From Bradyrhizobium sp. CCGB01 (GTDB lineage: Bacteria > Pseudomonadota > Alphaproteobacteria > Rhizobiales > Xanthobacteraceae): a stretch of DNA of 64,000 nucleotides. The position numbers and the translations under genes are program-made. Positions within the stretch are counted from its first letter, which is position 1, and each line of letters starts with the position of its first letter. The stretch is taken from NCBI RefSeq assembly GCF_024199795.1, contig NZ_JANADK010000001.1, forward strand, positions 7,688,001 to 7,752,000, given 5' to 3'. This document shows, in pieces, positions 41,709 to 54,757 of the stretch. A model generated the notes under the pieces. The model was given only the letters and a program-made list of their open reading frames with translations. It had not been told where the DNA came from and ran no database searches.

Positions 41709-42398
41709 TCAATCTCCCGCCTTCAGCCGATAGCCGATCCCCGTCTCCGTCAGCACATATTGCGGACGCTCCGGATCGGCCTCGATCTTCTGGCGCAGCT
41801 GGCGGACGTAGACGCGCAGATATTGCGCGTCGGTCAGCTCGTCCCAGAGCTCCTTGAGCAGGAAGCGGTGGGTGAGCACCTTGCCGGCGTGCTGCACCAG
41901 CACGCGCAACAGGTCATATTCCTTCGGCGACAGCTTTATGTCGCGCTCGCCGAGCTTGACGATGCGGCGGACGAGATCAACCGAGAGATCACCGGTGCGG
42001 AATATCGGGCGTTCGCCCTGCACCTGAAGCTGATGGCGCAGTGCGGCGCGCAGGCGCGCCAACAGTTCGTCCATGCCGAACGGTTTGGTCAGATAATCGT
42101 CGGCGCCGAGATCGAGCGCCTGCACCTTGCCGGCCTCGTCGCCCCGGCTCGACAGCACCACGATCGGAACGCCCTCATTGCGAGCGCGAATGGTGCGCAG
42201 CAGCTCGTGGCCCTGGATATCGGGCAGACCGAGATCGAGGATGATCAGCGCGGGTTCCTCGCCGAGCTTCTCCAGCGCGGTCTTGCCGTTCGGCGCTTCC
42301 AGGATCTCATATCCCTGCGTCGTCAGTCCCATCCGCAGCAATTTGCGGATCGGCGGCTCGTCGTCGATGACCAGAACCTTGATCGGGGCGGCGCTCAT
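41709..42398 (-). CDS. kdpE: KdpE response regulator
   Basis: A 229-residue OmpR/PhoB-type regulator. The receiver has the acidic pocket Asp12-Asp13-Glu14 and phospho-acceptor Asp55 (LIILDLGLPDIQG). The C-terminal winged helix spans about 130-227 and ends YVRQLRQKIEADPERPQYVLTETGIGYRL. It is activated by KdpD and switches on kdp at low potassium or osmotic stress. Its start overlaps the kdpD stop by four bases. OmpR-family dimers bind direct repeats spaced 11 bp; such repeats occur upstream of this operon at 50249-50298. Confidence 0.93.
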   Translation of the reverse strand: MSAAPIKVLVIDDEPPIRKLLRMGLTTQGYEILEAPNGKTALEKLGEEPALIILDLGLPDIQGHELLRTIRARNEGVPIVVLSSRGDEAGKVQALDLGADDYLTKPFGMDELLARLRAALRHQLQVQGERPIFRTGDLSVDLVRRIVKLGERDIKLSPKEYDLLRVLVQHAGKVLTHRFLLKELWDELTDAQYLRVYVRQLRQKIEADPERPQYVLTETGIGYRLKAGD

Positions 42399-45118
42399 GC
42401 GGCGGTATCCAATGCGTGGGTCTGTACCGGAACGGGCAGACGGATGGTGAGAACGGCGCCACTGCGGTCGCCGCGGTTGGCGGCCGAGATCGTGCCCCGC
42501 ATCGCCTCGACGAAGCCGCGGGAGATGGCGAGCCCCAGCCCGGTCCCGGGACGGACATGGTCGCCCTTCTGCACGCGGTAGAACTTGTCGAACACGCTCT
42601 CGAGCTCGTCGGGCGGAATGCCGCCGCCTTCGTCGGCGATCTGAAGCACGACATGATCCCGCTCGCGCTGGCTACGGATTGCGATCGTCGTGTCGGGCGG
42701 CGAATATTTTGCGGCGTTGTCGAGCAGGTTGAACAGCACCTGCTCGAACAGCACGGCATCGAGCTGAAGCATCGGCAGATCGGCGGCCAGCACCAGCTCC
42801 ACTTTGTGCGCCGTCAATATCTTGCTTGCCCGCCTCAACGCACTGCCGACGATCTCGCCGAGATCGTGCAGCGCCGTGTTGGGCACGATGGCGCCGGATT
42901 CGAGCTTGGTCATATCCAGCAGATTGGCGATGAAGCGGTTGAGACGCTCGGATTCGTCGATCACGGTAGCGAGCAGATCGCGCTTCTCGGTATCGGACAG
43001 TGCCCCGGCGAGATCGCGCATGGTCGAGGCCGCGCCGAGCACGGAGGCGAGCGGCGTCTTGAGGTCGTGCGAAATCGAGGTCAGCAGTGCCGAGCGCAGC
43101 CGCTCGGATTCGACGGTGCGCTTGACGCGATCGACGTCCTCGACCAGCAGCACGCGCTCGATAGCCAATGCGCCCTGGTCGACGAGTGCATCGAGCAGCC
43201 GGCGCTGGTCGGGGGTCAGCAGCGGCCCGGTACGATCATTGTCGATGCCGATGACGCCGATCGGACCGCGTCCGGTGCGCATCGGCAGGAACAACCGCTT
43301 GGCACCCGGCAGCGTATCCGAGCCGCGGCCGGCGGGACGATCGTTGCTCCAGGCCCAATTGGCGGCGGCAAGATCGGCCTGATCAAGATCATCCTCGGGC
43401 GGATAGCCGGATTTCACCGTGAGCAGGCCTTCCTCCGGCAGCAGCAGCACCACGCGGACCTTCAGCATCAGCGCGATCTGATAGGCGGTCGCCCACAGCA
43501 CGTCATCGAGCGTGCCGGTGCCGGCGAGCTTGCGGCTGAAAGCATAGAGCTGCTCGGTTGTCCGGATACGGCCGATCGCGGTGTCGGCCTGGGTCCGGAC
43601 CCGCCCCGCGACATTCGACACCACGAACGCGATCAGCATGAAGAAGAAGAACGCCGCGACGTTGGTCGGATCGGTGATGGTGAAGGTATAGACCGGCGGC
43701 AGGAAGAAGAAATTGTAGGCGAACGACGAGACGACGCTCGCAAGCATCGACGGCCACAGCCCGTAGCGCACGGCAACCGTCACCACGGCGGTGAGGAACA
43801 TCAGGTCGACGTTCTCGATGCCGAAATACGGCTTGATGGCCACGGCGGCAGCAAGGCCGAGCGCAGAAATCCCGAGCGCCTTGAGATAGGGCCGGGCATC
43901 GAACGGGTCCGATCGCGCAGCCGTCTGCACCGCCGTTTTCGGCGCCGGCTGGTCGACGAGCTCCTCGCCGGGGATGACATGGACGCTGATGTTGCCGGCG
44001 CGGCGCACCAGATCGTGCACGACCGATCCACGTGTCATCTCGAACCAGCGCGAGCGGGTCGACTTGCCGATCACGATCTGGGTGACGTTGTTGCCTTGCG
44101 CGAAATTGATGACGTCGTCGGCAATGCGCCGGCCGACGGCCGGAATGGTCAGCGCCTCGCCGCCGAGCGCCTCGGCGAGCCGCAGCGTGTCGGCGAGGCG
44201 ATCGCGCTCCTCGTCCGACAATTGCAGGGATCGCCGTGTCTCGATCGACACCGCGGTGAACGGCGCATGCAGCCGGTCGGCGAGCCGCTTCGTATAGCGC
44301 ACCAGCCCGGCCGCGCGCGGATCCTCGCTGACACAGACCAGAATGCGTTCACCCGCGGCCCAGGGACCGGAGATGGCGTTCGCCTGCATGTGATTGAGAA
44401 GCTGCTCGTCGACGCGCTCGGCCGTTCGCCGCAGCGCAAGCTCGCGCAGCGCAGTCAGATTGCCCGGCGAGAAATAGTGGTCTAGGGCCCGCTCGGCTTG
44501 CCTCGGGACATAGACCTTGCCCTCCTTCAGCCGCTGGATCAGATCATCGGGCGTGAGGTCGATCAGCTCGATCGCGTCGGCACGGTCGAATACCGAATCC
44601 GGAACCGTCTCGCGCACCCGCACATGGGTGATCTGGGCGATGACGTCGTTCAGGCTCTCGATGTGCTGGATGTTGACCGCCGAATAGACGTCGATGCCGT
44701 GGGAGAGCAGCTCCTCGACGTCGAGATAGCGCTTGGGATGACGGCTGCCCGCCGCATTGGTGTGGGCGAGTTCGTCGACCAGAGCGATTTTCGGCCGCCG
44801 CGCGATCACGGCATCAAGGTCCATCTCCTCGACGATCTGGCCGCGGTAGTCGAGCCGCTTGCGCGGGATCACCTCGAGCCCGCGCACCAGCGCCTCGGTC
44901 TCGGCGCGGCCGTGGGTTTCGACGAAACCGACCACGACGTCGATGCCGGCCTTGCGCCTGGCGTGGGCGCTTAGCAGCATCTCGTAGGTTTTGCCGACGC
45001 CGGGGGCGGCGCCGACGAAGATCTTCAGCTTGCCGCTGACGCCCTCCTCCCGGCGCGCGGTCTCCAGCAGCGCCTCAGGCGACGGACGTTGTTCGGGATC
45101 GCGGCGCTCTCGGACCAT
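42395..45118 (-). CDS. kdpD: KdpD potassium-responsive sensor kinase
   Basis: A 907-residue kinase with the full KdpD layout. The N-terminal KdpD domain has P-loop GAAPGVGKT (36-44), followed by a universal-stress-type domain (about 240-370), four membrane helices (about 400-500), a GAF-like region, and the kinase core with phospho-acceptor His684 in LLTSISHDLKTPLASVLGAAST. The ATPase motif follows (FDKFYRVQKGDHVRPGTGLGLAI). It senses potassium limitation and controls KdpE. It lies downstream of kdpC by 40 bases and is probably part of the same transcript. Confidence 0.94.
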   Translation of the reverse strand: MVRERRDPEQRPSPEALLETARREEGVSGKLKIFVGAAPGVGKTYEMLLSAHARRKAGIDVVVGFVETHGRAETEALVRGLEVIPRKRLDYRGQIVEEMDLDAVIARRPKIALVDELAHTNAAGSRHPKRYLDVEELLSHGIDVYSAVNIQHIESLNDVIAQITHVRVRETVPDSVFDRADAIELIDLTPDDLIQRLKEGKVYVPRQAERALDHYFSPGNLTALRELALRRTAERVDEQLLNHMQANAISGPWAAGERILVCVSEDPRAAGLVRYTKRLADRLHAPFTAVSIETRRSLQLSDEERDRLADTLRLAEALGGEALTIPAVGRRIADDVINFAQGNNVTQIVIGKSTRSRWFEMTRGSVVHDLVRRAGNISVHVIPGEELVDQPAPKTAVQTAARSDPFDARPYLKALGISALGLAAAVAIKPYFGIENVDLMFLTAVVTVAVRYGLWPSMLASVVSSFAYNFFFLPPVYTFTITDPTNVAAFFFFMLIAFVVSNVAGRVRTQADTAIGRIRTTEQLYAFSRKLAGTGTLDDVLWATAYQIALMLKVRVVLLLPEEGLLTVKSGYPPEDDLDQADLAAANWAWSNDRPAGRGSDTLPGAKRLFLPMRTGRGPIGVIGIDNDRTGPLLTPDQRRLLDALVDQGALAIERVLLVEDVDRVKRTVESERLRSALLTSISHDLKTPLASVLGAASTMRDLAGALSDTEKRDLLATVIDESERLNRFIANLLDMTKLESGAIVPNTALHDLGEIVGSALRRASKILTAHKVELVLAADLPMLQLDAVLFEQVLFNLLDNAAKYSPPDTTIAIRSQRERDHVVLQIADEGGGIPPDELESVFDKFYRVQKGDHVRPGTGLGLAISRGFVEAMRGTISAANRGDRSGAVLTIRLPVPVQTHALDTAA

Positions 45119-45158: not shown

Positions 45159-45764
45159 CTACTTCGCGGCCATGCGATCGAGCGCGAGGTTCAGCGCCAA
45201 TACGTTAACACGGGGTTCGCCGAGCAGGCCGAGCAGACGGCCTTGGACGTTGGCCGCCACAAGCTGCTTCACCGCCTCTTCCGGCATATTCCGCGCCTTG
45301 GCGACGCGCGGCACCTGGAATTGCGCGGCTTCCGGCGAGATGTCGGGGTCGAGGCCGCTGGCCGAGGTCGTGACTAGATCCTCGGGGACAGCAGCGTTGG
45401 GGTTCTCCGCCTTCAGCTTGTCCACGTCCTCCTTCAGCCGGTCGGCCAGCGCCTTGCTGGTGGGGCCGAGATTGGAGCCGCCGGAGTTGGCGGCGTTGTA
45501 GGGCGCCGAGACCGTCTTGGTCGAATCATTCGGGTCCGGCGCCAGCGTCGCCGAGGGGCGGCCGTGGAAATATTTGTCGTCCTTGAATTCCTGCCCGATC
45601 AGGGCGGAGCCGACCACCTTGCCATCCCTCTCGATCAGGCTTCCTTGCGCCTGCGCGGGAAAGATCGCGCCGGCAATGGCTGTCATCGCGAGCGGATAGG
45701 CCAGGCCCGTGATGGCGGTGAGCACCAGCAACAGGACGATGGCGGGCCGGATTTCTCTGAGCAT
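45159..45764 (-). CDS. kdpC: Potassium-transporting ATPase subunit C
   Basis: A 201-residue subunit with one N-terminal membrane helix (about 7-28, [19 protein letters not shown]) and a periplasmic domain carrying [20 protein letters not shown] and [10 protein letters not shown]. It stabilises the KdpFABC complex. It is separated from kdpB by 184 bases, much more than in most kdp operons, and that gap contains a repeat element. Confidence 0.94.
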
Positions 45765-45948: not shown

Positions 45949-48063
45949 TCAAGCCAGGTGCAAGGCAACAACGACGAGATCGATCGCCTTGATGCCGATG
46001 AAGGGAATGACGATGCCGCCGAGGCCGTAGACCAGGAGGTTGCGGCGAAGCAGCGCGCCAGCACCGACCGCACGATAGGCAACGCCCTTCAGAGCGAGCG
46101 GGATCAACCCGATGATGACGAGCGCGTTGAAGATAATCGCCGACAGGATGGCGCTCTGCGGGCTCGACAGGTTCATGACGTTGAGCACATTGAGCTGCGG
46201 GTAGAACGCCAGGAACATCGCGGGGATGATGGCGAAATACTTGGCGACGTCGTTGGCGATCGAGAACGTCGTCAGCGCCCCGCGCGTCATCAGCAGCTGC
46301 TTGCCGATCTCGACCACCTCGATCAGCTTGGTCGGGTTGGAATCGAGGTCGACCATGTTGCCGGCCTCGCGGGCGGCCTGGGTGCCGGTGTTCATGGCGA
46401 CACCGACGTCGGCCTGCGCGAGCGCCGGCGCGTCGTTGGTGCCGTCGCCGCACATGGCAACCAGCTTGCCCTTGGCCTGCTCGTCGCGGATCAGCTTGAG
46501 CTTGTCCTCCGGAGTTGCCTGTGCCAGGAAATCGTCGACGCCCGCCTCCGCCGCGATCGCCGCGGCCGTCATCGGGTTGTCGCCCGTGATCATGACGGTG
46601 CGGATGCCCATGCGGCGCAGCTCCGCAAACCGCTCGCGGATGCCGCCCTTGACGATGTCCTTGAGCTGGATCACGCCGAGCAGCTTGCCGTCCCTGGCGA
46701 CCGCCAGCGGCGTGCCGCCGGCCTTCGAGATCTCGTCAGCAATGGCCTGGACCTCGCGGCCGATGTCCGAGAGCCCGGCGGGCTGAAGCGCGCGCGCGGT
46801 GTTGCCGGAGGCAACGGCCAGCGGTGCGCCGCCGCCGACATAGTTGAGCATGGCATCGACCGCGCCCTTGCGCACCGACGAGCCGCCGGCATCGACGCCG
46901 CTCATGCGGGTCTGCGCCGTGAACGGAATGAAGGTGGCGCCAAGCTCGGCCATGTCGCGGCCGCGGATGCCGTATTTCTCCTTGGCCAGAACGACGATGG
47001 AGCGACCTTCCGGGGTCTCGTCGGCAAGCGAGGCGAGCTGGGCTGCGTCCGCGAGCTCCTGCTCGGTGACGCCGCGCACGGGACGGAATGCAGTCGCCTG
47101 GCGGTTGCCGAGCGTGATCGTGCCGGTCTTGTCGAGCAGCAGCGTATCGACGTCACCGGCGGCCTCGACCGCGCGGCCGGACATCGCCAGTACGTTGAAG
47201 CGCACCAGGCGGTCCATGCCGGCGATGCCGATCGCCGACAGCAGCGCGCCGATCGTCGTCGGGATCAGCGTCACGAACAGCGCGACCAGCACGATCACCG
47301 AGATCGAGCCGCCAGCATACGCCGCATAGCTCGGAATGGTGACGGTGGCGAACACGAAGATGATGGTGAGACCGGCGAGCAGGATGTTGAGCGCGATCTC
47401 GTTCGGCGTCTTTGCGCGCTCGGCGCCCTCGACCAGCTTGATCATGCGGTCGATGAAGGTCGAGCCTTGCGCCGCCGTGATGCGGACACGGATCCAGTCG
47501 GACAGCACCTGCGTGCCGCCTGTCACGGCCGAGCGGTCGCCGCCGGATTCGCGGATCACGGGCGCGGATTCACCGGTGATGGCGGCTTCGTTGACCGAAG
47601 CCACACCCTCGATCACCTCGCCGTCGGACGGGATGGTATCGCCCGCCTCGACCAGCACGATGTCGCCGACCTTCAGGCTGGTGCCCGGCACCAGCTTGAA
47701 CGCCTGGCCGGCGCCGGTCAGCAGCTTGGCCTGGCTCTCGGTGCGGGTCTTGCGCAGCGAATCGGCCTGCGCCTTGCCGCGGCCTTCGGCCACCGCTTCG
47801 GCGAAATTGGCGAACAGCACCGTGAACCAGAGCCAGAGGATGATCTGGAAGGTGAAGCCGAGATTTGCGCCGCCGGTCACAACATCGCGCAGGAAAATAA
47901 CGGTGGTGAGCGCGGCCACGATCTCGACCACGAACATCACGGGGTTCTTGACCATCAGCCGCGGGTCGAGCTTGGTGAAGGAGGCGCGGATCGCGGGCAC
48001 GACGATCTTGGGGTCGAGCATTGCCGAGACGGAGGCGCGTTTTTGCAGTTTCATCGTTTCCAT
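45949..48063 (-). CDS. kdpB: Potassium-transporting ATPase subunit B
   Basis: The P-type ATPase subunit, 704 residues from the ATG at 48063 (GGAG 8 bases upstream; an in-frame GTG at 48072 would add three). Phosphorylated Asp311 lies in [14 protein letters not shown]. The TGES loop is ITGESAPV and the hinge motif [22 protein letters not shown]. It couples ATP hydrolysis to potassium uptake by KdpA. A 12-bp direct repeat lies in the short gap after kdpA. All catalytic motifs are intact. Confidence 0.96.
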
Positions 48064-48113
48064 GGAGGTCACTCCAAACCCATCAGAAGACTGTCGATCA
48101 GAACATTTTTCGA

Positions 48114-49817
48114 TCAGAACACTTGGCCGGCGTTCATCGCGAGATGCTCGACGATCGGACCGAGCGCGAGCGCCGGGAAGAAGGTCAGGCCGCCGATGAT
48201 CAGGATCACGCCGACGACGAGGCCGACGAACAGTCCGCCCGTGGTCGGGAACGTGCCCGCCGACGGCGGGATCGATTTCTTGGCAGCCAGCGAGCCCGCG
48301 ATCGCCATCGCCGGGACGATCATGAAGAAGCGGCCGACGAACATCGCGCTGGCGAGCGTGAGGTTGTAGAACAAGGTGTTGCCGGTGAGGCCCGCAAAGG
48401 CCGAGCCGTTATTGCCGGTCGCCGAGGTGAAGGCGTAGAGCACCTCGGTGAAGCCGTGCGGGCCGGCATTCGCCATGGAGGCGACCGCCGCCGGATAGAC
48501 CACGCCGACCGCGGTCCAGCCGAGATACATCAGCGGCAGCACCAGGATCGCGAGCATCGCCATTTTGACCTCGCGCGCCTCGATCTTCTTGCCGACATAT
48601 TCCGGCGTGCGGCCGACCATCAGGCCGGCGACGAAGATCGCGAGCACGACGAACAGCAGCATGCCGTAGAGACCGGCGCCGACGCCGCCGATGATGATTT
48701 CGCCGAGCTGCATGTTGATCAGCGGAATCATGCCGCCAAGCGCGGTGAAGCTGTCATGCATGGCATTGACGGCGCCGCAGGACGCGGCCGTCGTGATCAC
48801 GGCGAACAGGGAGGACGCGACGATGCCGAAGCGAACCTCCTTGCCTTCCATGTTGCCGCCGGTCAGGCCCAGCGCATGCATGGTCGAGGTGCCGTTGGCT
48901 TCCGCCGAATAGGTGACGGCAACGCCGGCGAGGAACAGCACGCCCATCACGGCGAGGATCGCCCAGCCCTGGCGCTGGTTGCCGACCATGCGGCCGAACA
49001 CGTTGGTCATGGCCGCGCCGATCAGGAAGATCGACAGCATCTGCACGAAGTTCGACAGCGCCGTCGGGTTCTCGAAGGGATGCGCGGCGTTGGCATTGAA
49101 GAAGCCGCCGCCATTGGTGCCCAGCATCTTGATCGCGACCTGCGAGGCAACCGGGCCGACCGCGATGGTCTGCTTGGCGCCTTCGAGCGTCGTCGCCTCG
49201 ACGTAATCACCGAGTGTCTGCGGGATGCCCTGCCAGACCAGGAACAGGCAGTAGACGACGCAGATCGGCAGCAGCACGTAGAGCGTCGTGCGGGTGACGT
49301 CGACCCAGAAATTGCCGACCGTGCGCATCGAGGCGCGCGAGAAGCCGCGAATCAGGGCCACCGCCAGCGCGATGCCGGTTGCCGCCGACAGGAAGTTCTG
49401 GTGCGTCAGGCCGAGCATCTGCACGAGATAGGACACCGTGCTCTCGCCGCCGTAGTTCTGCCAGTTGGTGTTGGTGATGAAGGAGATCGCGGTGTTGAAG
49501 GAGAGATCCTGGGCCACCGCCGACTGCCCGGCAGGATTGAACGGCAGCACGGCCTGAAGCCGCATCACGCCGTAGATGATGAGGAAGCCGCCGACGTGAA
49601 AAAGCAGCATCGCGACCGTGTAGGTCAGCCAATGCTGCTCGCGCTTCTCGTCGACGCCGGAGAACCAGTAGATCCCCGCCTCGATCGGCCGCAGCACCGG
49701 CGACATAAACGTCCGCTCGCCGTTGAACACGGCCGTCATGTACCCGCCGAGCGGCTTGGTGAGCGCGACGATAATGACGCAAAAGAGAATGATCTGGAGC
49801 CAACCGATCATGGTCAT
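48114..49817 (-). CDS. kdpA: Potassium-transporting ATPase subunit A
   Basis: The 567-residue potassium channel-like subunit with about ten membrane helices. Selectivity-filter segments include [33 protein letters not shown] and [11 protein letters not shown]. It binds potassium from the periplasm. The start MTMIGWLQI lies 4 bases after a small hydrophobic ORF and about 110 bases after kdpF. The stop codon region is duplicated directly downstream (TCGATCAGAACA twice, 48094-48121). Confidence 0.95.
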
Positions 49818-49821
49818 GGAA

Positions 49822-49926
49822 TCAACCCTTCAGGCTTGGTGCCGGGCGCAAAAGCGGCAGGAGCAACGTCAGCAGGCAGGCGACCAGCACGGCGTCCGCC
49901 AGCAGCAATTCGACAAGGAGCAGCAC
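49822..49926 (-). CDS. Possible 34-residue membrane peptide between kdpF and kdpA
   Basis: A GTG at 49926, three bases after the kdpF stop, opens a 34-codon frame rich in Leu/Val ([26 protein letters not shown]) that ends 4 bases before kdpA. The composition and tight packing suggest a one-helix protein coupled to kdpF and kdpA. The ribosome binding site is weak and no family is recognised, so it may be chance. Confidence 0.4.
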
Positions 49927-49929
49927 GGC

Positions 49930-50019
49930 TCAGAACCGTTCCGGCCGCAGGAGTGCATAGGTGAGATAGATCAGGAGGCCGAACGAGACGGCGCCGGCGA
50001 GCGCATAATCGAAAATCAT
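49930..50019 (-). CDS. kdpF: KdpF, small subunit of the potassium ATPase
   Basis: A 29-residue peptide, MIFDYALAGAVSFGLLIYLT then YALLRPERF, matching KdpF: one membrane helix with a C-terminal LLRPERF tail. It stabilises the KdpABC complex in the membrane. A GGGAGCGG sequence precedes the ATG. It lies 11 bases after a 27-codon gene and ahead of kdpA. Confidence 0.88.
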   Translation of the reverse strand: MIFDYALAGAVSFGLLIYLTYALLRPERF

Positions 50020-50030
50020 GGTCCGCTCCC

Positions 50031-50114
50031 TCACAGCCGTTCGCAGGCATAGGTGTAGCCGATCGCAAGGGCAAAGAAGACGAAGCCCAGCGCCAGCATC
50101 AGGATGTCCATCAT
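50031..50114 (-). CDS. Small membrane peptide at the head of the kdp operon
   Basis: A 27-residue frame (MMDILMLALGFVFFALAIGY, TYACERL) with GAGGAG seven bases before the first ATG. It is a single membrane helix ending in YACERL, a pattern I recall upstream of kdpF in several bacteria. It is the first gene after the kdp regulatory element, so it should be the first translated product of the operon. Function unknown. Confidence 0.65.
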   Translation of the reverse strand: MMDILMLALGFVFFALAIGYTYACERL

Positions 50115-50248
50115 GGGATTGCTCCTCATTGCGCCCTCATGTCCGGCGCAACTGCTTCTCGGGGACCCGGCGAAGCTCGATGGAAACGCAGGCGCATTTC
50201 CACAACCGCCAGTCGGGACTTTTGACCGTGCTGAAATGCCAGCACAGG

Positions 50249-50298
50249 CATAGGTTTTCGAGATGAGGCCTATGGCGAAGATATAGGAATCTCATAAA
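50249..50298 (-). promoter_or_regulatory. 50-bp four-copy element, copy 1 (kdp operon)
   Basis: On the minus strand TTTATGAGATTCCTATAT runs 50298-50281, CATCTCG 50265-50259, and CCTATG 50254-50249. Half-sites TTTATG, CCTATA and CCTATG lie at positions 1, 12 and 45, i.e. spaced by 11 and 33 bases, as expected for OmpR/PhoB-family dimers. The first kdp ORF begins 134 bases downstream. KdpE is the obvious candidate binder, inferred from location. Confidence 0.7.
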
Positions 50299-50327
50299 GG
50301 CTGGGGCCAGTGCCTGCCCGCACGGAG

Positions 50328-50357
50328 CTGTCGTCCCCGTGTCCGCGGGGACGACAG
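50328..50357. repeat. CTGTCGTCCCCG inverted repeat
   Basis: CTGTCGTCCCCG (50328-50339) and CGGGGACGACAG (50346-50357) form a perfect 12-bp stem with a 6-base loop. It lies between the two divergent elements at 50249-50298 and 50406-50455, inside the 402-base gap 50115-50516. It may insulate the divergent units; it lacks a T-tract, so it is not a standard terminator. Confidence 0.75.
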
Positions 50358-50405
50358 AAGGGGAATTGGCCGCACGTTGCGCCCCCTCGCGCACTCCCAT
50401 CGTCA

Positions 50406-50455
50406 CTTATGAAATCACTATATCTCCCGCCCCGTCCCCATCTCGTTTTCAAATG
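50406..50455 (+). promoter_or_regulatory. 50-bp four-copy element, copy 2
   Basis: CTTATGAAATCACTATAT (50406-50423), 15 bases, CATCTCG (50439-50445), 4 bases, CAAATG (50450-50455). Spacing is identical to the kdp copy. TGGCCATC follows at the same distance as in copy 4. The next start codon is 61 bases downstream (50517). Confidence 0.7.
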
Positions 50456-50516
50456 CACTTTTGGCCATCTTGGAGAGGCCGGCCGACTGACCGACGCCAA
50501 CTCCAGGAGGCCTGAC

Positions 50517-50984
50517 ATGACCGCCGCTCTCCGACGTCTTTCCCGACCTTCCCTCAACCAGCGCCTTCGCGCGGCGCCAGTGATGACGCGGTCGCTGATG
50601 CTCGATGTCATCGATCACACCTGCCGGCGCTTTCCCTCGCTCGGGCAAAGCGAGCGCACCGCGCGCGTGATGCGTTTCGTCGATGCGGAGGCCTGGACCG
50701 ATGCCGCGCTGGCGCTGATGGAGCTCGAGCTGCCGCTGTGGCAGGTTCGCCGCATCGCCTATGACGAAGGCGAGTGGCATTGTGCGCTGTCGCGCGAGCG
50801 CGAGCTGCCGGATTGGCTCGACGCCGCGGTCGAAGCCCGGCATGCCGACCTCGCCCTGGCATTGCTGTCGGCCTTCATCGAGGTCAAGGCACTGGCCGTG
50901 GAGGTTTCACGGCCAAGCGTCCCCACCGTGCGCCCAACCCTGGACGCTCTCTACGAGCCGGTTGCTTGCGAGAATTTCAGCTAA
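50517..50984 (+). CDS. Unrecognised 155-residue protein
   Basis: The ATG at 50517 is preceded by AGGAGG at 50505-50510, which sets the start. The protein is largely helical and soluble, with an Arg-rich N-terminus (LRRLSRPSLNQRLRAAP), DHTCRRFPSLGQSERTARVMRFV, a WHCALSRERELPDWLD segment and LALALLSAFIEVKALAVEV near the end. Two cysteines and three tryptophans are spread along it. I do not recognise the family. It lies behind one of the four conserved elements and just upstream of a small membrane protein. Confidence 0.7.
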   Translation: MTAALRRLSRPSLNQRLRAAPVMTRSLMLDVIDHTCRRFPSLGQSERTARVMRFVDAEAWTDAALALMELELPLWQVRRIAYDEGEWHCALSRERELPDWLDAAVEARHADLALALLSAFIEVKALAVEVSRPSVPTVRPTLDALYEPVACENFS

Positions 50985-51006
50985 GCCAGCCTGACAGGTT
51001 CGCGCC

Positions 51007-51285
51007 TTGCCGCAATCTTCGGACATATCGCGGGGCCCGAGCCCTGCTCGGGTGATCGCGCGCTTTGCCGTCCGCATCGCGCTGCTCGCCGCCTTTGCCG
51101 CCTTCGGCAGCGTCGGCTTCGGGCGGAGCCTCGCCGCCCTGCTCTGGATGTCGATCATTCTGTGCGCCCTCGCCGGCCTCGTCAGGCGCGAGCCGCTGTT
51201 CGGTGCCGTCCTCAATCATTGGGACGAAGGCGTCGCCTTCGGCGCACTGTTCGCACTGGTTCATGTCGTCAACGAACTGGCCTGA
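51007..51285 (+). CDS. Small membrane protein of unknown function
   Basis: A 92-residue frame starting with TTG at 51007 (a GTG at 51051 is an alternative), 22 bases after the preceding gene. It has three hydrophobic stretches: VIARFAVRIALLAAFAAFG, LAALLWMSIILCALAGLV and GVAFGALFALVHVVNEL. No family is recognised. It ends 9 bases before the third copy of the conserved element, and probably shares a transcript with the gene at 50517. Confidence 0.55.
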   Translation: MPQSSDISRGPSPARVIARFAVRIALLAAFAAFGSVGFGRSLAALLWMSIILCALAGLVRREPLFGAVLNHWDEGVAFGALFALVHVVNELA

Positions 51286-51294
51286 ACATCAGGC

Positions 51295-51344
51295 TTTATG
51301 ACGTTCCTATGCGATCACCGCACGGCCTCACTCGAAATCATATT
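51295..51344 (+). promoter_or_regulatory. 50-bp four-copy element, copy 3
   Basis: TTTATGACGTTCCTATGC (51295-51312), 15 bases, TCACTCG (51328-51334), 4 bases, CATATT (51339-51344). It has the same geometry as the other copies, with a weaker third half-site. The next start is 75 bases downstream (51420). Confidence 0.7.
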
Positions 51345-51419
51345 CGCTTGAAAAGATATTGATCGGGTGGCCGCGGGACATGCGCCCCGCGACCTTCGTC
51401 AATCGGAAGGAATAGATCC

Positions 51420-51677
51420 GTGAAACTCGTCGAACCTCCCTCGTCGTGCAGCTCGCCCTCGACCATAGTCTTCATCGGCAAGAACCGGCGGGGACAATGG
51501 GTCGCCCAGGAACAGAACGGCCTCTATGGCGGCCTGTTCGTCAACCGCGCGCAGGCGATCAAATACGCGCTGTTCGAAAACGGCCAGCATCCCGAAACCA
51601 TCGTCGAGCTGCCGCGCGAGATCGAGCTCGACATGGGCAGAAGGCCCGATGCCGCCGCGCCCAAGCGCGCCGCCTGA
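51420..51677 (+). CDS. Small protein with FIGKN-GQWVA-GGLF domain, paralogue of 53356-53742
   Basis: An 85-residue protein with a GTG start behind GGAAGGAA. The core TIVFIGKNRRGQWVAQEQNG-LYGGLFVNRAQAIKYALFENG lines up with AFFIGRNGAGLWVAREANG-RVGGLFLFKSSAVDFANRQSG of the gene at 53356. The predicted pattern is three short strands then a helix, followed by an acidic ELPREIELDMG strand that is also shared (FPAETFELDIE). Soluble, no signal peptide. Function unknown. It precedes the DapA-like gene by 18 bases. Confidence 0.7.
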   Translation: MKLVEPPSSCSSPSTIVFIGKNRRGQWVAQEQNGLYGGLFVNRAQAIKYALFENGQHPETIVELPREIELDMGRRPDAAAPKRAA

Positions 51678-51695
51678 ACCCCTCAGGCAAAAGCC

Positions 51696-52613
51696 ATGTT
51701 CATCCCGCCCTCCGCCTGGTTCACCGGGTTCATTCCGGACCTGCCGACACCGTTCGATTCGTCCGACGCGATCGACCTGAAGGCGTTCGCCGCGCTCTGC
51801 GAGCGCCAGATCGCCGCCGGCGTCCCCGCGCTCGTGGTCTGCGAGACGGCAGGCGAAGCGCCAACGCTCTCGCCGGCCGAGCAGGAGCTGGTCATTCGCG
51901 CCGCGGTCGATGTCGCCCGCGGCCGTGTTCGGATCATCGCCGGCGTGGTGTCGAATTCAACGAGCCACGCCGTCGAGCTCGCGCGGCGCGCGGAAGCCGC
52001 CGGAGCCGATGCAATCATGTCGGTGGTCCCCGCCTACAACAAGCCGATGCAGGAGGGGATGCTCGCGCACTTCCGCAGCCTTGCCGGCTCGGTCGGCCTG
52101 CCCGTGATCCTGCACGATACTCCCTCCCGCACACTGCGACCGCTCGCCGACGAGACGCTTCTGCGCCTCGTCGAATCCCGCCAGTTCGTGGGTCTGCGCG
52201 ACGGAAGCCATGACATCACCCGCCCGATGCGGCTGTCCCGCCACCTGCCTGCCGGCTTTCGCTGTCTCTCCGGCGACGACAGCACCGCCTTCGGCTTCAT
52301 CGCGGACGGCGGCGATGGCGCGATCTCGGAGATATCCAACATCGCGCCGGATCTCTGCCGGACGATCTTCTCACATGTCAGGCAGGGCCGGCTGCAATCC
52401 GCCCGCTACCTCGACAAGCGGCTGATGCCGCTCATCGCGTGCCTCGCCAAGGAGAGCCCGGCGGCGCTCAAATTCGCCCTGAGCATGCTTGGCTTGATGC
52501 AGCCGGACACGCGGCTGCCGATCGTGCCGCTGGACGCTCCCGCTCGCGCGGAGGTCGTCCGGGCGTTCGCTGCGCTCTCCGATGAAGAGCTGATCGACAG
52601 CGTCGGTGCCTGA
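51696..52613 (+). CDS. DapA-family protein lacking the Schiff-base lysine
   Basis: A 305-residue member of the dihydrodipicolinate synthase/N-acetylneuraminate lyase fold. The fold marks are present: PTPFDSSDAIDL, VVCETAGEAPTLSPAEQ, VVPAYNKPMQEGM, LPVILHDTPSRTL, CLSGDDSTAFGFIADGGDGAISEISN. The catalytic lysine normally in VGIKEATGD is Arg168 (FVGLRDGSHD). The proton-relay Tyr is His140, and the second Thr of the TTGE motif is Ala52. A class I aldolase reaction is therefore not expected; binding, another chemistry or a structural role is possible. It lies in the same unit as the small gene at 51420. Confidence 0.85.
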   Translation: MFIPPSAWFTGFIPDLPTPFDSSDAIDLKAFAALCERQIAAGVPALVVCETAGEAPTLSPAEQELVIRAAVDVARGRVRIIAGVVSNSTSHAVELARRAEAAGADAIMSVVPAYNKPMQEGMLAHFRSLAGSVGLPVILHDTPSRTLRPLADETLLRLVESRQFVGLRDGSHDITRPMRLSRHLPAGFRCLSGDDSTAFGFIADGGDGAISEISNIAPDLCRTIFSHVRQGRLQSARYLDKRLMPLIACLAKESPAALKFALSMLGLMQPDTRLPIVPLDAPARAEVVRAFAALSDEELIDSVGA

Positions 52614-52638
52614 CGTTTCGGGTTCGATCGGATCTCGC

Positions 52639-53037
52639 ATGAGCTCACCGCCGTCAGCCGATGGACATCACAGGCTGCTCTGTGCCTGGCAATTGGCGCT
52701 GCTGCGCTTTGCCGTCACGCTGGACGATTGCGACCGGGTGAATGTCGTCGCACTTGCCGGAGAACTCGATCGCCTCGACCGGCGCAACGCGGATGACTCA
52801 CTCCACTTCTTCCGCCGATCCAGCTCCCGGCTCTGCGCAGCTATCCGTGGCGAGGGAGAGAACGCGACAGCGGTCCTGGACCGCTTCTGTGGTGAGATCA
52901 ACGAGCCGCGGCTGCGGCTGGCTTTTGCATCGGCCGTCGGAATCTTGCGTTCGGATCCTGCCCCGCCCGAAGTTCGTCCGAAGCGCAACCGCGACCTGTT
53001 CAGAGGGCTTCCGACGCGACGGACGGCATCTTTATGA
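52639..53037 (+). CDS. Unrecognised 132-residue protein
   Basis: From ATG 52639 (an in-frame GTG at 52606 is possible) the product is 132 residues, helical and basic, with HRLLCAWQLALLRFAVTLDDCDRV, LAGELDRLDRRNADDSLHFFRRSSSRLC and a proline/arginine-rich tail. It lies 25 bases after the DapA-like gene. Its stop codon is inside the fourth copy of the conserved element. No family or membrane segment is recognised; it could be mis-called, but the frame is open and well placed. Confidence 0.5.
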   Translation: MSSPPSADGHHRLLCAWQLALLRFAVTLDDCDRVNVVALAGELDRLDRRNADDSLHFFRRSSSRLCAAIRGEGENATAVLDRFCGEINEPRLRLAFASAVGILRSDPAPPEVRPKRNRDLFRGLPTRRTASL

Positions 53038-53080
53038 GATTCCTATGCGGCGAGCCCGGCGCGCATCTCGCAATCCTACG
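53031..53080 (+). promoter_or_regulatory. 50-bp four-copy element, copy 4
   Basis: TTTATGAGATTCCTATGC (53031-53048), 15 bases, CATCTCG (53064-53070), 4 bases, CCTACG (53075-53080), then TGGCCATC as in copy 2. Its first 16 bases are identical to the kdp copy. The next start is 71 bases downstream (53152). Confidence 0.7.
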
Positions 53081-53151
53081 CGCTCATGGCCATCATTCGG
53101 GGCAGATTGCGGCGGCCTCGGCCACCGCCATGCTGACGAAGGAATATCGAG

Positions 53152-53337
53152 ATGTCGATGCTGACTCACGGCCTTGAACACTCCGTTGACCTGGCCCCTG
53201 CGCGGATCTCGCCGGAGCGCAAGGCCCGGCTCAAGCGTGTCGCGCTCGGCGCACTGACCGTGCTCACGATGGGCAGCGTGCTCACAGCGCTGATCGCGCT
53301 GAGGACCACGATCTATGTCTGGCACCTTCTCCCCTAA
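53152..53337 (+). CDS. Small membrane protein, 61 residues
   Basis: The N-terminal half is polar (THGLEHSVDLAPARISPERKARLKR) and the C-terminal half is one membrane helix (ALGALTVLTMGSVLTALIAL) with a short YVWHLLP tail. AAGGA lies about 10 bases before the ATG. It is the first gene after conserved element copy 4 and is followed by the 53356 gene after 18 bases. Function unknown. Confidence 0.6.
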   Translation: MSMLTHGLEHSVDLAPARISPERKARLKRVALGALTVLTMGSVLTALIALRTTIYVWHLLP

Positions 53338-53355
53338 CGGGCATGGGAGACCATC

Positions 53356-53742
53356 ATGACCTTGCAGATGTGTGAAGAGGCCGCCATGGCCGCGATCGCC
53401 CTTCAAGCCACCCGTCGCCGGCCTGACGCGCAACAGGCGACGGCACTCAAGCCGCTCGACCCCGATGTCGTCAGCGCCGCCATCCCCGCCTTCTTCATCG
53501 GACGCAACGGCGCGGGCCTCTGGGTCGCTCGCGAAGCGAATGGGCGCGTCGGCGGTCTGTTCCTGTTCAAGAGCTCGGCGGTCGACTTCGCCAACCGGCA
53601 GAGCGGGCTGACGCGGTGCGCACTCGTATTCCCCGCCGAGACCTTTGAGCTCGACATCGAGAACCGCGGCAATCCCCTGATCGTGTTGGCAGATGGAGCC
53701 AGGCGGCTTTTTGCGCGCATCGCCGCAAGGCTACGGCCATGA
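53356..53742 (+). CDS. Small protein with FIGRN-GLWVA-GGLF domain, paralogue of 51420-51677
   Basis: A 128-residue soluble protein. After a variable N-terminus of about 45 residues comes the domain AFFIGRNGAGLWVAREANG-RVGGLFLF, shared with the gene at 51420, then VDFANRQSG and FPAETFELDIENRG. The tail is Arg-rich. The stop overlaps the next ATG (ATGA). Both paralogues lie downstream of a conserved 50-bp element. Function unknown. Confidence 0.7.
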   Translation: MTLQMCEEAAMAAIALQATRRRPDAQQATALKPLDPDVVSAAIPAFFIGRNGAGLWVAREANGRVGGLFLFKSSAVDFANRQSGLTRCALVFPAETFELDIENRGNPLIVLADGARRLFARIAARLRP

Positions 53743-53831
53743 TCGAGCTCAAGATCGGCATCCTGGTTGCATTGATGTGCGCGCTGCTGCTCGGCATGCG
53801 CATCACCGCGGCCACGGCCTCGGACAGGTAG
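53739..53831 (+). CDS. 30-residue membrane peptide
   Basis: The ATG overlaps the previous stop. The sequence MIELKIGILVALMCALLLGM followed by RITAATASDR is one membrane helix with a short polar end. It is packed between the 53356 gene and another tiny ORF, which supports real translation. Too short for family assignment. Confidence 0.5.
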   Translation: MIELKIGILVALMCALLLGMRITAATASDR

Positions 53832-53832
53832 C

Positions 53833-53961
53833 ATGCAGCTCCTCAAGGGAAATCTGGAGCAGGCGGTCACCACGACGATCCTGACCATGACGCTGAGCCT
53901 GATCTGGGGAGCAGTCCTGACGCTCGTGATCACGCTGCTTGCGCGCGGTCTGGGAGTTTAG
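53833..53961 (+). CDS. 42-residue membrane peptide
   Basis: It starts one base after the preceding stop. A polar LLKGNLEQAVTTT leads into one helix (ILTMTLSLIWGAVLTLVITLLA). It closes the small-gene cluster; a 160-base gap with no recognisable gene precedes upp. Function unknown. Confidence 0.5.
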   Translation: MQLLKGNLEQAVTTTILTMTLSLIWGAVLTLVITLLARGLGV

Positions 53962-54121
53962 AACCCGGCACATCGATCGACGATGGTGCCTACGCGGCGA
54001 GCAACCGGACGCACAGCGCGGTCGCGGTGCCCGCCGGAGGCCGCGTATCCCCGCGGAAAAGACCTGAGCGAAAGGCCGGGCCGATCTGGCGCAATTTCAC
54101 GGAACCGTGTAGAGCGGTTTC

Positions 54122-54757
54122 ATGAGCACAAGCAGCGTCAACGTCGTCGCCCACCCCCTGGTCCAGCACAAGCTCTCCCTGATGCGAGAGAAGGACCGCT
54201 CGACCAAGAGCTTTCGCGAGATCCTGAACGAGATCGGGATGCTGCTCGGCTACGAGGTGACGCGCGACCTGCCGCTGGAGCTGGTGGACATCGAGACGCC
54301 GATCTCGCCGATGCTGGCGCCGAAGATCGCCGGCAAGAAGCTCACGTTGGCGCCGATCCTGCGCGCCGGCGTCGGCTTCCTCGACGGCATGCTGGCGCTG
54401 ATGCCCTCGGCGCGCATCGCCCATATCGGGCTCTACCGCGATCCCGAAACCTTGCAGGCCGTGGAATATTACTTCAAGGCGCCGCAGGACCTGTCCGACC
54501 GCACCGTGATCCTGATGGACCCGATGCTGGCGACCGGTAACTCCGCCTGCGCCGGCGCCTCCCTGCTCAAGGCGCGCGGCGCCCGCGACATCCGTTTCGT
54601 CTGCCTGCTGGCCGCGCCCGAGGGCATCGCGCAGTTCCAGAGCGAGCATCCCGACGTGCCGGTCTGGACCGCCGCGATCGACGAGCGGCTCAATGACCAC
54701 GGCTACATCGTACCGGGCCTTGGCGACGCCGGCGACCGGATGTTCGGCACCAAGTAG
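54122..54757 (+). CDS. upp: Uracil phosphoribosyltransferase
   Basis: A 211-residue UPRTase of normal length that converts uracil plus PRPP to UMP in pyrimidine salvage. The N-terminal [25 protein letters not shown], the [13 protein letters not shown] loop, the PRPP-binding DPMLATGNS (133-141) and the uracil-site [17 protein letters not shown] are all present. It is followed 33 bases later by the acyl-CoA synthetase, but the two need not be functionally linked. Confidence 0.96.

Follow-up and report, generated by a model that had tools for sequence, protein, structure and literature searches.

A putative KdpE-dependent promoter element shared by the kdp operon and neighbouring small-gene operons of Bradyrhizobium sp. 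CCGB01

In the window analysed here, a stretch of 64,000 nucleotides of Bradyrhizobium sp. CCGB01 (contig NZ_JANADK010000001.1, positions 7,688,001 to 7,752,000 of the forward strand), the genes kdpF, kdpA, kdpB, kdpC, kdpD and kdpE run leftward and a row of mostly small genes (o1 to o8) runs rightward from one intergenic region, and a common box precedes the kdp operon and three operons of the small-gene row. Comparison of sequences suggests, with a probability that we put at about 0.87, that the four copies of this box are promoters dependent on the response regulator KdpE, which drive kdp together with the neighbouring small-gene operons. A KdpE-linked regulon had been proposed from the letters of the window (hereafter the sequence-only reading), and this proposal was supported by the layout and position of the operator, the DNA-contact residues of KdpE, the presence of the box at kdp across genera, the small-gene operons, and remote loci. 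We found no earlier account of a KdpE regulon in Bradyrhizobium among the papers listed in searches of one open-access library; a paper of 2017 gives only four species with identified KdpE sites in the kdpF promoter (PMC5401905), and a review of 2013 raises the question of how common an expanded set of KdpE targets is (PMC3610689).

What the DNA itself shows is the box, with its conservation, anatomy and linkage to kdp, and the homology of KdpE. The copies had been placed at 50249-50298 on the minus strand and at 50406-50455, 51295-51344 and 53031-53080 on the plus strand, and all four placements were exact. The distances to the next start codon, given as 61-75 bases in three cases and 134 in the kdp case, were likewise correct (61, 75, 71 and 134 bases between), the last being counted to an open reading frame (ORF) of 27 amino acids (aa) before kdpF. 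A matrix built from the four copies gave them 53.8-62.3 bits and no other position of the window more than 11.2, and when each copy was left out of the matrix in turn, the omitted copy still reached 29.0-43.7 bits against 11.3-12.9 for the best non-site of the window, a margin of more than 17 bits each time. A random background of 2.56 Mb of first-order Markov sequence gave no score above 12 (maximum 10.8). Across the 9.3-Mb genome, three places matched the 18-base core when up to three mismatches were allowed, all in the island (the fourth copy differs more), and a gapped pattern of the box occurred with 0-1 mismatch at four places, again all in the island, and with three mismatches at five more. 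Hundreds of unrelated matches, which would have spoken against the regulon, were thus not found in the pattern search of this genome; since the reversed control of this otherwise specific pattern gave 10 matches in all, matches remote from the island need other support.

The crowding of four copies inside 3 kb could also reflect a dispersed, mobile or chance repeat without any regulatory role, which we regard as extremely improbable, because the copies hold orthologous positions genus-wide, their spacers have diverged while the presumed contact bases are near-invariant, no genome-wide spread was seen, and the box points at a nearby gene in the counted cases. A chance or mobile repeat was accordingly ruled out by the Markov background, the genome pattern searches and the conserved bases. 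An RNA element was likewise considered and rejected, as no Rfam match was obtained at E ≤ 0.1 in 49900-54200.

Each box begins with a distal direct repeat of two 6-bp half-sites separated by a 5-bp spacer, of the form TTTATG-N5-CCTATG, in which the first half-site begins with T or C followed by T and the second mostly with C,C (80 sites: C 94%, C 88%). Among 366 boxes aligned from the genus set described below (those to which a 70-position matrix gave more than 20 bits), the TAT at positions 3-5 was kept in 366, 365 and 362 boxes and that at 14-16 in 366 of 366 at each base, the CTCG at 37-40 was kept in 366, 366, 365 and 366, and A48 was present in all 366, while the spacers were variable. 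A -10-like hexamer (CATCTT, CATCAT, GATATT, CACTTC), overlooked in the sequence-only reading, follows at 61-66, ten bases past the second block, with A62 in 355 of 366; with this hexamer included, the element, about 66 bp long, has the look of a complete promoter. By its distance from the -10, the start site would lie near position 73, which would place the distal repeat at about -72 to -56. The half-sites at 1, 12 and 45 had been described as lying in 11-bp phase, and the spacing holds, site 45 being 33 bp (3 × 11) from site 12, but the block at 34 does not resemble a TTTAT half-site and may overlap a poor -35 at 38-43.

At the kdp promoter (50233..50298, minus strand), the distal repeat TTTATG-N5-CCTATA occupies 50282-50298, the CTCG..CCTATG block 50249-50262, and the -10-like CATTTC 50233-50238. 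The box of operon 1 (50406..50471, plus strand), which leads the 155-aa gene, comprises the distal repeat at 50406-50422, CTCGTTTTCAAATG at 50442-50455, and CATCTT at 50466-50471 as its -10-like hexamer. In the box of operon 2 (51295..51360, plus strand; an 85-aa gene and a gene resembling dihydrodipicolinate synthase, DHDPS), the corresponding parts are the distal repeat at 51295-51311, CTCGAAATCATATT at 51331-51344, and GATATT at 51355-51360, and in that of operon 3 (53031..53096, plus strand; genes of 61 and 128 aa), the distal repeat at 53031-53047, CTCGCAATCCTACG at 53067-53080, and CATCAT at 53091-53096.

The proposed binder of the box, the OmpR/PhoB-type response regulator encoded by kdpE (41709..42398, minus strand, 229 aa), aligned over its full length, receiver and winged-helix domains included, with Escherichia coli KdpE (4KNY, E 8.6e-60). 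The residues R193, R200 and T215, which contact DNA in E. coli KdpE (PMC3264566), have kept equivalents in it, as read off the 4KNY alignment, whose chain numbering is shifted by 2. The E. coli operator is TTTATA-N5-TTTACA, and the first two T of each half-site are described as invariant across the genera aligned in that source (PMC3264566); as the second half-site in Bradyrhizobium is mostly C,C, the boxes show that feature of the operator only by half. The distal repeat of Bradyrhizobium resembles that of the E. coli kdpFABC promoter in half-site type, in the 5-bp spacer and in predicted position (-72 to -56 against a footprint of -72 to -50). It differs from the E. coli case in that the box stands at four promoters of one island and includes a near-invariant second block, CTCG-N4-CMTATG, in that the second half-site is mostly CCTATG, and in that the additional targets are uncharacterised proteins.

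Compatible with KdpE-dependent promoters, the block at 37-50 might be core promoter only, with a degenerate -35 (e.g. TCGAAA at 38-43) and KdpE on the distal repeat alone. This arrangement, which we consider possible though rather doubtful, is favoured by the 17 bp between 38-43 and the -10 at 61-66, and by the E. coli footprint, which covers the distal repeat alone and also counts against a KdpE contact at the second block, as does the lack of a clear upstream half-site in CTCG-N4-CMTATG. On the other side, the distal half-site recurs as CMTATG at 45-50, exactly in 11-bp phase and with A48 invariant, and in the o1 class of boxes the -35 would have to read TCGTTT. Furthermore, the E. coli kdp promoter (L054 2280-2660, minus strand) has a second 6-5-6 repeat, TTTGCG-AAATC-TTTGCA, at an offset of 32 after the known site, and Duffyella has TTTACA-ACAAA-TATATA at the equivalent place (33-49); resting on one promoter and one relative, the E. 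coli repeat may be due to chance. Pho-box promoters of PhoB have 11-bp direct repeats near the -10 and a weak -35. The Bradyrhizobium promoter is similar to these in its 11-bp phase and in a putative activator site near the -10 with a poor -35, and differs in its half-site and in its main repeat, which lies 33 bp further upstream.

Conservation was assessed in a genus set of 101 loci, composed of the window, 20 loci chosen for clustered box matches from the listed part of a pattern tally, and 80 loci found through the o1 protein (the best 80 of 104), so that all counts are conditional on selection by box or by o1. Named relatives found through o1 were nearly all Bradyrhizobium. With a matrix score above 12 taken as a box, and with a selection bias because the training sites of the matrices came from the same family, the kdp box was present at 99 of the 99 loci having kdpA and upstream room, and the o1 box at 100 of the 100 testable loci, with the o1 start 43-96 bases past box position 66 in the counted cases. 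Boxes were likewise found at 76 of 83 o3 matches and 63 of 69 o6 matches, and some relatives carry five or more in the island. The set probably holds some genomes twice under different handles; its distinct 66-mers number 89 (kdp), 90 (o1), 63 (o3) and 58 (o6). A record titled Frankia sp. RB7 also carries a Bradyrhizobium-type island with boxes, and its title is probably wrong.

The pattern tally itself (182 of 195 genus genomes with a match) is unspecific, because the reversed control also yields roughly one or two matches per genome, and we relied on clustered low-mismatch matches and on the matrices; in the genomes G009 and G125, for example, matches lie only in a recurrent unrelated stretch. 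Among the 13 of 195 genomes devoid of any match, 11 lacked kdpA at E ≤ 1e-30, an absence that is weak evidence in four of them (G097, G101, G136, G164), which are less than 90% complete, and the other two (G118, G168) possess kdpA and were shown by matrix to have kdp boxes of 52.0 and 44.7. A check of 15 genomes for kdpA, o1 and KdpD showed all three in each of the six with kdpA; among the nine that lack kdpA, seven were also without o1 and without KdpD at the limits used. Loss of kdp thus tends to go with loss of the boxes and of o1. In G052, adjoining remnants of o1 and kdpE are all that is left, with no box above 12. G009 (L226 4378-7371) has lost kdpA and has kept o1, a short KdpD-like protein matching residues 354-905 only, and KdpE at 79% identity, together with a diverged o1 box (26.7 bits, TCTAG replacing CTCG), and thus retains the sensor pair and a target without the pump.

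These co-occurrences bear on whether the box might be the site of another regulator that also controls kdp, such as a second OmpR/PhoB-type protein or a dedicated sigma factor, with KdpE not the main binder. Other regulators do act at kdp elsewhere, namely SigF in Mycobacterium smegmatis (PMC5401905) and, through a sigma-T promoter, in Caulobacter (PMC8552747), and the near-invariant CTCG at 37-40 is no part of the known KdpE operator. We nevertheless judge this explanation improbable, as the distal repeat agrees with the KdpE operator of E. coli in the three respects given above, the box and o1 accompany the KdpDE genes even in the pumpless G009, and the box is found at kdp in several families.

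Two comparisons reached beyond the genus. A family search detected kdpA in 101 of 149 genomes, and the best 30 loci were fetched, of which 29 remained after exclusion of the window's own genome (L157-L185; six of the 29 Bradyrhizobium); the kdp box was present at 28 of 29 and the o1 box at nine of nine. In 12 plasmid-borne kdp promoters of other families examined along with that of E. coli, the layout was plain, with TCTCGAA as its block and CATATT as its -10, at kdp of Sinorhizobium fredii, Rhizobium ruizarguesonis, R. etli and R. daejeonense, the second half-site of R. ruizarguesonis and R. etli beginning with T,T. The layout was also plain in Acetobacter, where the second block is different, was recognisable by eye in Novosphingobium, Shinella and S. 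meliloti, and was unconvincing in Paracoccus and Acidiphilium. At the relevant place, the Bradyrhizobium distal matrix exceeded the 95% level of shuffled sequence in eight of 11 alphaproteobacteria and in Duffyella. Consistent with these observations, KdpE of S. fredii binds the kdpFABC promoter region in electrophoretic mobility shift assays but does not bind trkA and kup, one kdpF probe also being unbound (PMC9239096).

Relatives of the island genes recur behind boxes as well. Those of o1, o3 or the DHDPS-like protein were found in this position at five loci (L138, L147, L148, L149, L153). In R. daejeonense, a protein of the o3 family (P0242), with a homologue in Rhizobium sp. ACO-34A, adjoins kdpF behind a further box, and in Rhizobium sp. 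CC-CFT758, an o3-family gene and a DHDPS-family gene lie behind boxes with Kup in between. In Sinorhizobium sp. RAC02, DHDPS and o3 families follow kdpE and a box, and in Microvirga sp. VF16, o1 does so.

Several observations weigh against KdpE-dependent promoters of this type or limit their reach. Both genus sets were picked by box or by o1 and are not an unbiased sample, and even there seven of 83 o3 matches and six of 69 o6 matches lacked a box; the o3 misses are probably cross-hits to the paralogue o7 at L075, L083, L090 and L107, which show no o3 gene of their own, and are real at L037, L112 and L117. Among the family-search loci, four kdp boxes (L178, L181, L183, L185) were weak (12.1-22.1) and had a CATCG-type block, and L182 has kdp without any box above 12. 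Weak boxes were also obtained in Agrobacterium (L151, 13.9) and in one Phyllobacterium locus (L152, 19.1), and no box in another (L150) or at the o3 homologue on a plasmid of Bradyrhizobium sp. 187 (L155). In the other families, the spacing in Azospirillum is shifted by 3 bp, and the distal matrix was marginal and second best only in S. meliloti, failed in Novosphingobium (-1.4) and Acidiphilium (0.9), and equalled the promoter's own 95% level in Paracoccus. The known E. coli site scored 8.9 on this matrix, below the 9.7 of the 95% level for shuffled upstream DNA, so that it is in layout and position, and not in score, that the box resembles the E. coli promoter. The KdpE site of M. smegmatis is unlike that of E. 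coli (PMC5401905), and the sigma-T promoter at Caulobacter kdp mentioned above also counts on this side.

Taken together, we infer a switch in which, at low K+, KdpD would phosphorylate KdpE, and phosphorylated KdpE would bind the direct repeat TTTATG-N5-CCTATG at the distal end, about 56-72 bp before the predicted start site, and probably also contact CMTATG, the half-site around position 45, on the same helix face. It would thereby activate, and not repress, by recruiting RNA polymerase to a promoter whose -35 is poor and whose -10 lies at 61-66, and would drive kdpFABC together with the small-protein operons, a probably non-catalytic DHDPS-like protein and a few remote genes. As the box of the kdp promoter also stands before the neighbouring small-gene sets, potassium shortage probably induces a hidden group of proteins besides the pump.

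More tentatively, and at rather less than even odds, the low-K+ response of Rhizobiales may have a second arm, in which conserved small proteins (the o1, o3/o7 and r145 families and small membrane proteins) and a pseudoenzyme derived from DHDPS would aid life at low K+, all under a two-dimer KdpE promoter of fixed geometry, with two 6-5-6 repeats 32-33 bp apart, that would be the ancestral form of the kdp promoter and would be present, unrecognised, in E. coli too. Control of non-kdp genes by KdpE would be shared with the expanded target sets of Staphylococcus aureus and enterohaemorrhagic E. coli (PMC3610689), whose targets are virulence genes, whereas the putative ones in Bradyrhizobium form a conserved kdp-adjacent island with kdp-type promoters in soil and plant bacteria. 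The promoter model predicts K+-responsive genes across a large group of soil bacteria including legume symbionts, and competitive nodulation by S. fredii benefits from the Kdp pathway (PMC9239096). It also suggests low K+ as the first condition for studying protein families left blank by family searches, offers a two-site model for KdpE promoters generally, and points to a conserved protein with a well-studied enzyme fold that is probably a pseudoenzyme.

On the minus strand of the island, kdpE is joined by kdpD (42395..45118, 907 aa), an ORF named as the sensor histidine kinase from general knowledge and position. It is preceded by the ORFs kdpC (45159..45764) and kdpB (45949..48072), whose queries match the annotated genes of subunits C and B, respectively, in L148, and by kdpA (48114..49817), which matches annotated kdpA genes. 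The 29-aa kdpF (49930..50019) was named from its size and location before kdpA, and the hydrophobic 27-aa ORF (50031..50114), recognised from its sequence only, lies between the kdp box and kdpF as the first ORF past the box.

On the plus strand, operon 1 opens with o1 (50517..50984, 155 aa, uncharacterised), divergent from kdp, which is followed by o2 (51007..51285), a 92-aa hydrophobic protein. Behind the second box come o3 (51420..51677, 85 aa), with the family motif GxWV..G.xGGLF..A..FA..E, o4 (51696..52613, 305 aa), the DHDPS-like protein, and o5 (52639..53037, 132 aa, uncharacterised), and behind the third o6 (53152..53337, 61 aa), with a single hydrophobic stretch, o7 (53356..53742, 128 aa), a paralogue of o3, and o8 (53833..53961), a 42-aa hydrophobic protein. 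At E ≤ 0.001, the o3 family is represented in this genome by o3 and o7 only, the former directly behind its own box and the latter second behind the o6 box. The description of the regulon as one of small proteins fits the three box-led operons in most of their genes but does not cover o4. Pfam named the DHDPS-like protein alone among eight island proteins, and neither NCBIfam nor a Pfam scan of the o3 alignment gave a function for the small proteins. The AlphaFold models were weak (predicted local distance difference test scores of 68 for o3 and 61 for o1), and Foldseek found nothing in the PDB at E ≤ 0.001; o7 had no match among plasmid records at E ≤ 1e-4.

The catalytic triad of active DHDPS consists of T44, Y107 and Y133 (PMC3369909). 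The o4 protein passed the DapA family model TIGR00674 (246.3 bits; cut-off 206.15) and thus resembles dihydrodipicolinate synthase, but it has Arg168 in place of the Schiff-base Lys161 and His140 in place of the catalytic Tyr133, while T44 and Y107 are retained. Across the fetched loci, both residues are replaced in most of 83 distinct homologues. The Lys161 position is held by Arg in 63, Cys in eight, Lys in six, Asn in three, and Ser, Ile and Val in one each, and the Tyr133 position by His in 79, and only two homologues, both from Phyllobacterium, are canonical at Lys161, Tyr133 and Thr45 alike. From these residues, o4 is likely a pseudoenzyme or an enzyme of altered activity. Lys161 mutants of DHDPS are reported to retain a residual activity.

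Outside the island, three further candidate boxes at two loci of the same genome were supported by conservation. One, at about 3.09 Mb (L191 1500), precedes a 70-aa exported protein, exp70, which was found in five of the 60 genus genomes searched (this genome included) and in G177; an upstream box was present in all six, with scores of 18.5-37.9 bits and ACTGG replacing CTCG. As a separate observation, another genome (G053) has a strong remote box (46.5) at about 2.388 Mb (L201 2476, minus strand), with no clear gene behind it.

The other two form a divergent pair at about 5.319 Mb of contig G000:C1 (L192 1422, minus strand, and 1500, plus strand), before a 64-aa protein and the 145-aa protein r145. 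Relatives of r145 were found in 13 of 60 genomes, at 20 places in all, and ten of these places are remote (L234-L241, L247, L253), each with an upstream box of 18-41 bits, with the caveats that the box is more than 200 bases off in L240, L241 and L247, that L241 has a better box elsewhere, and that L253 is a fragment. The other ten relatives, at 25-31% identity, lie among o1-o5 genes in the islands of other species.

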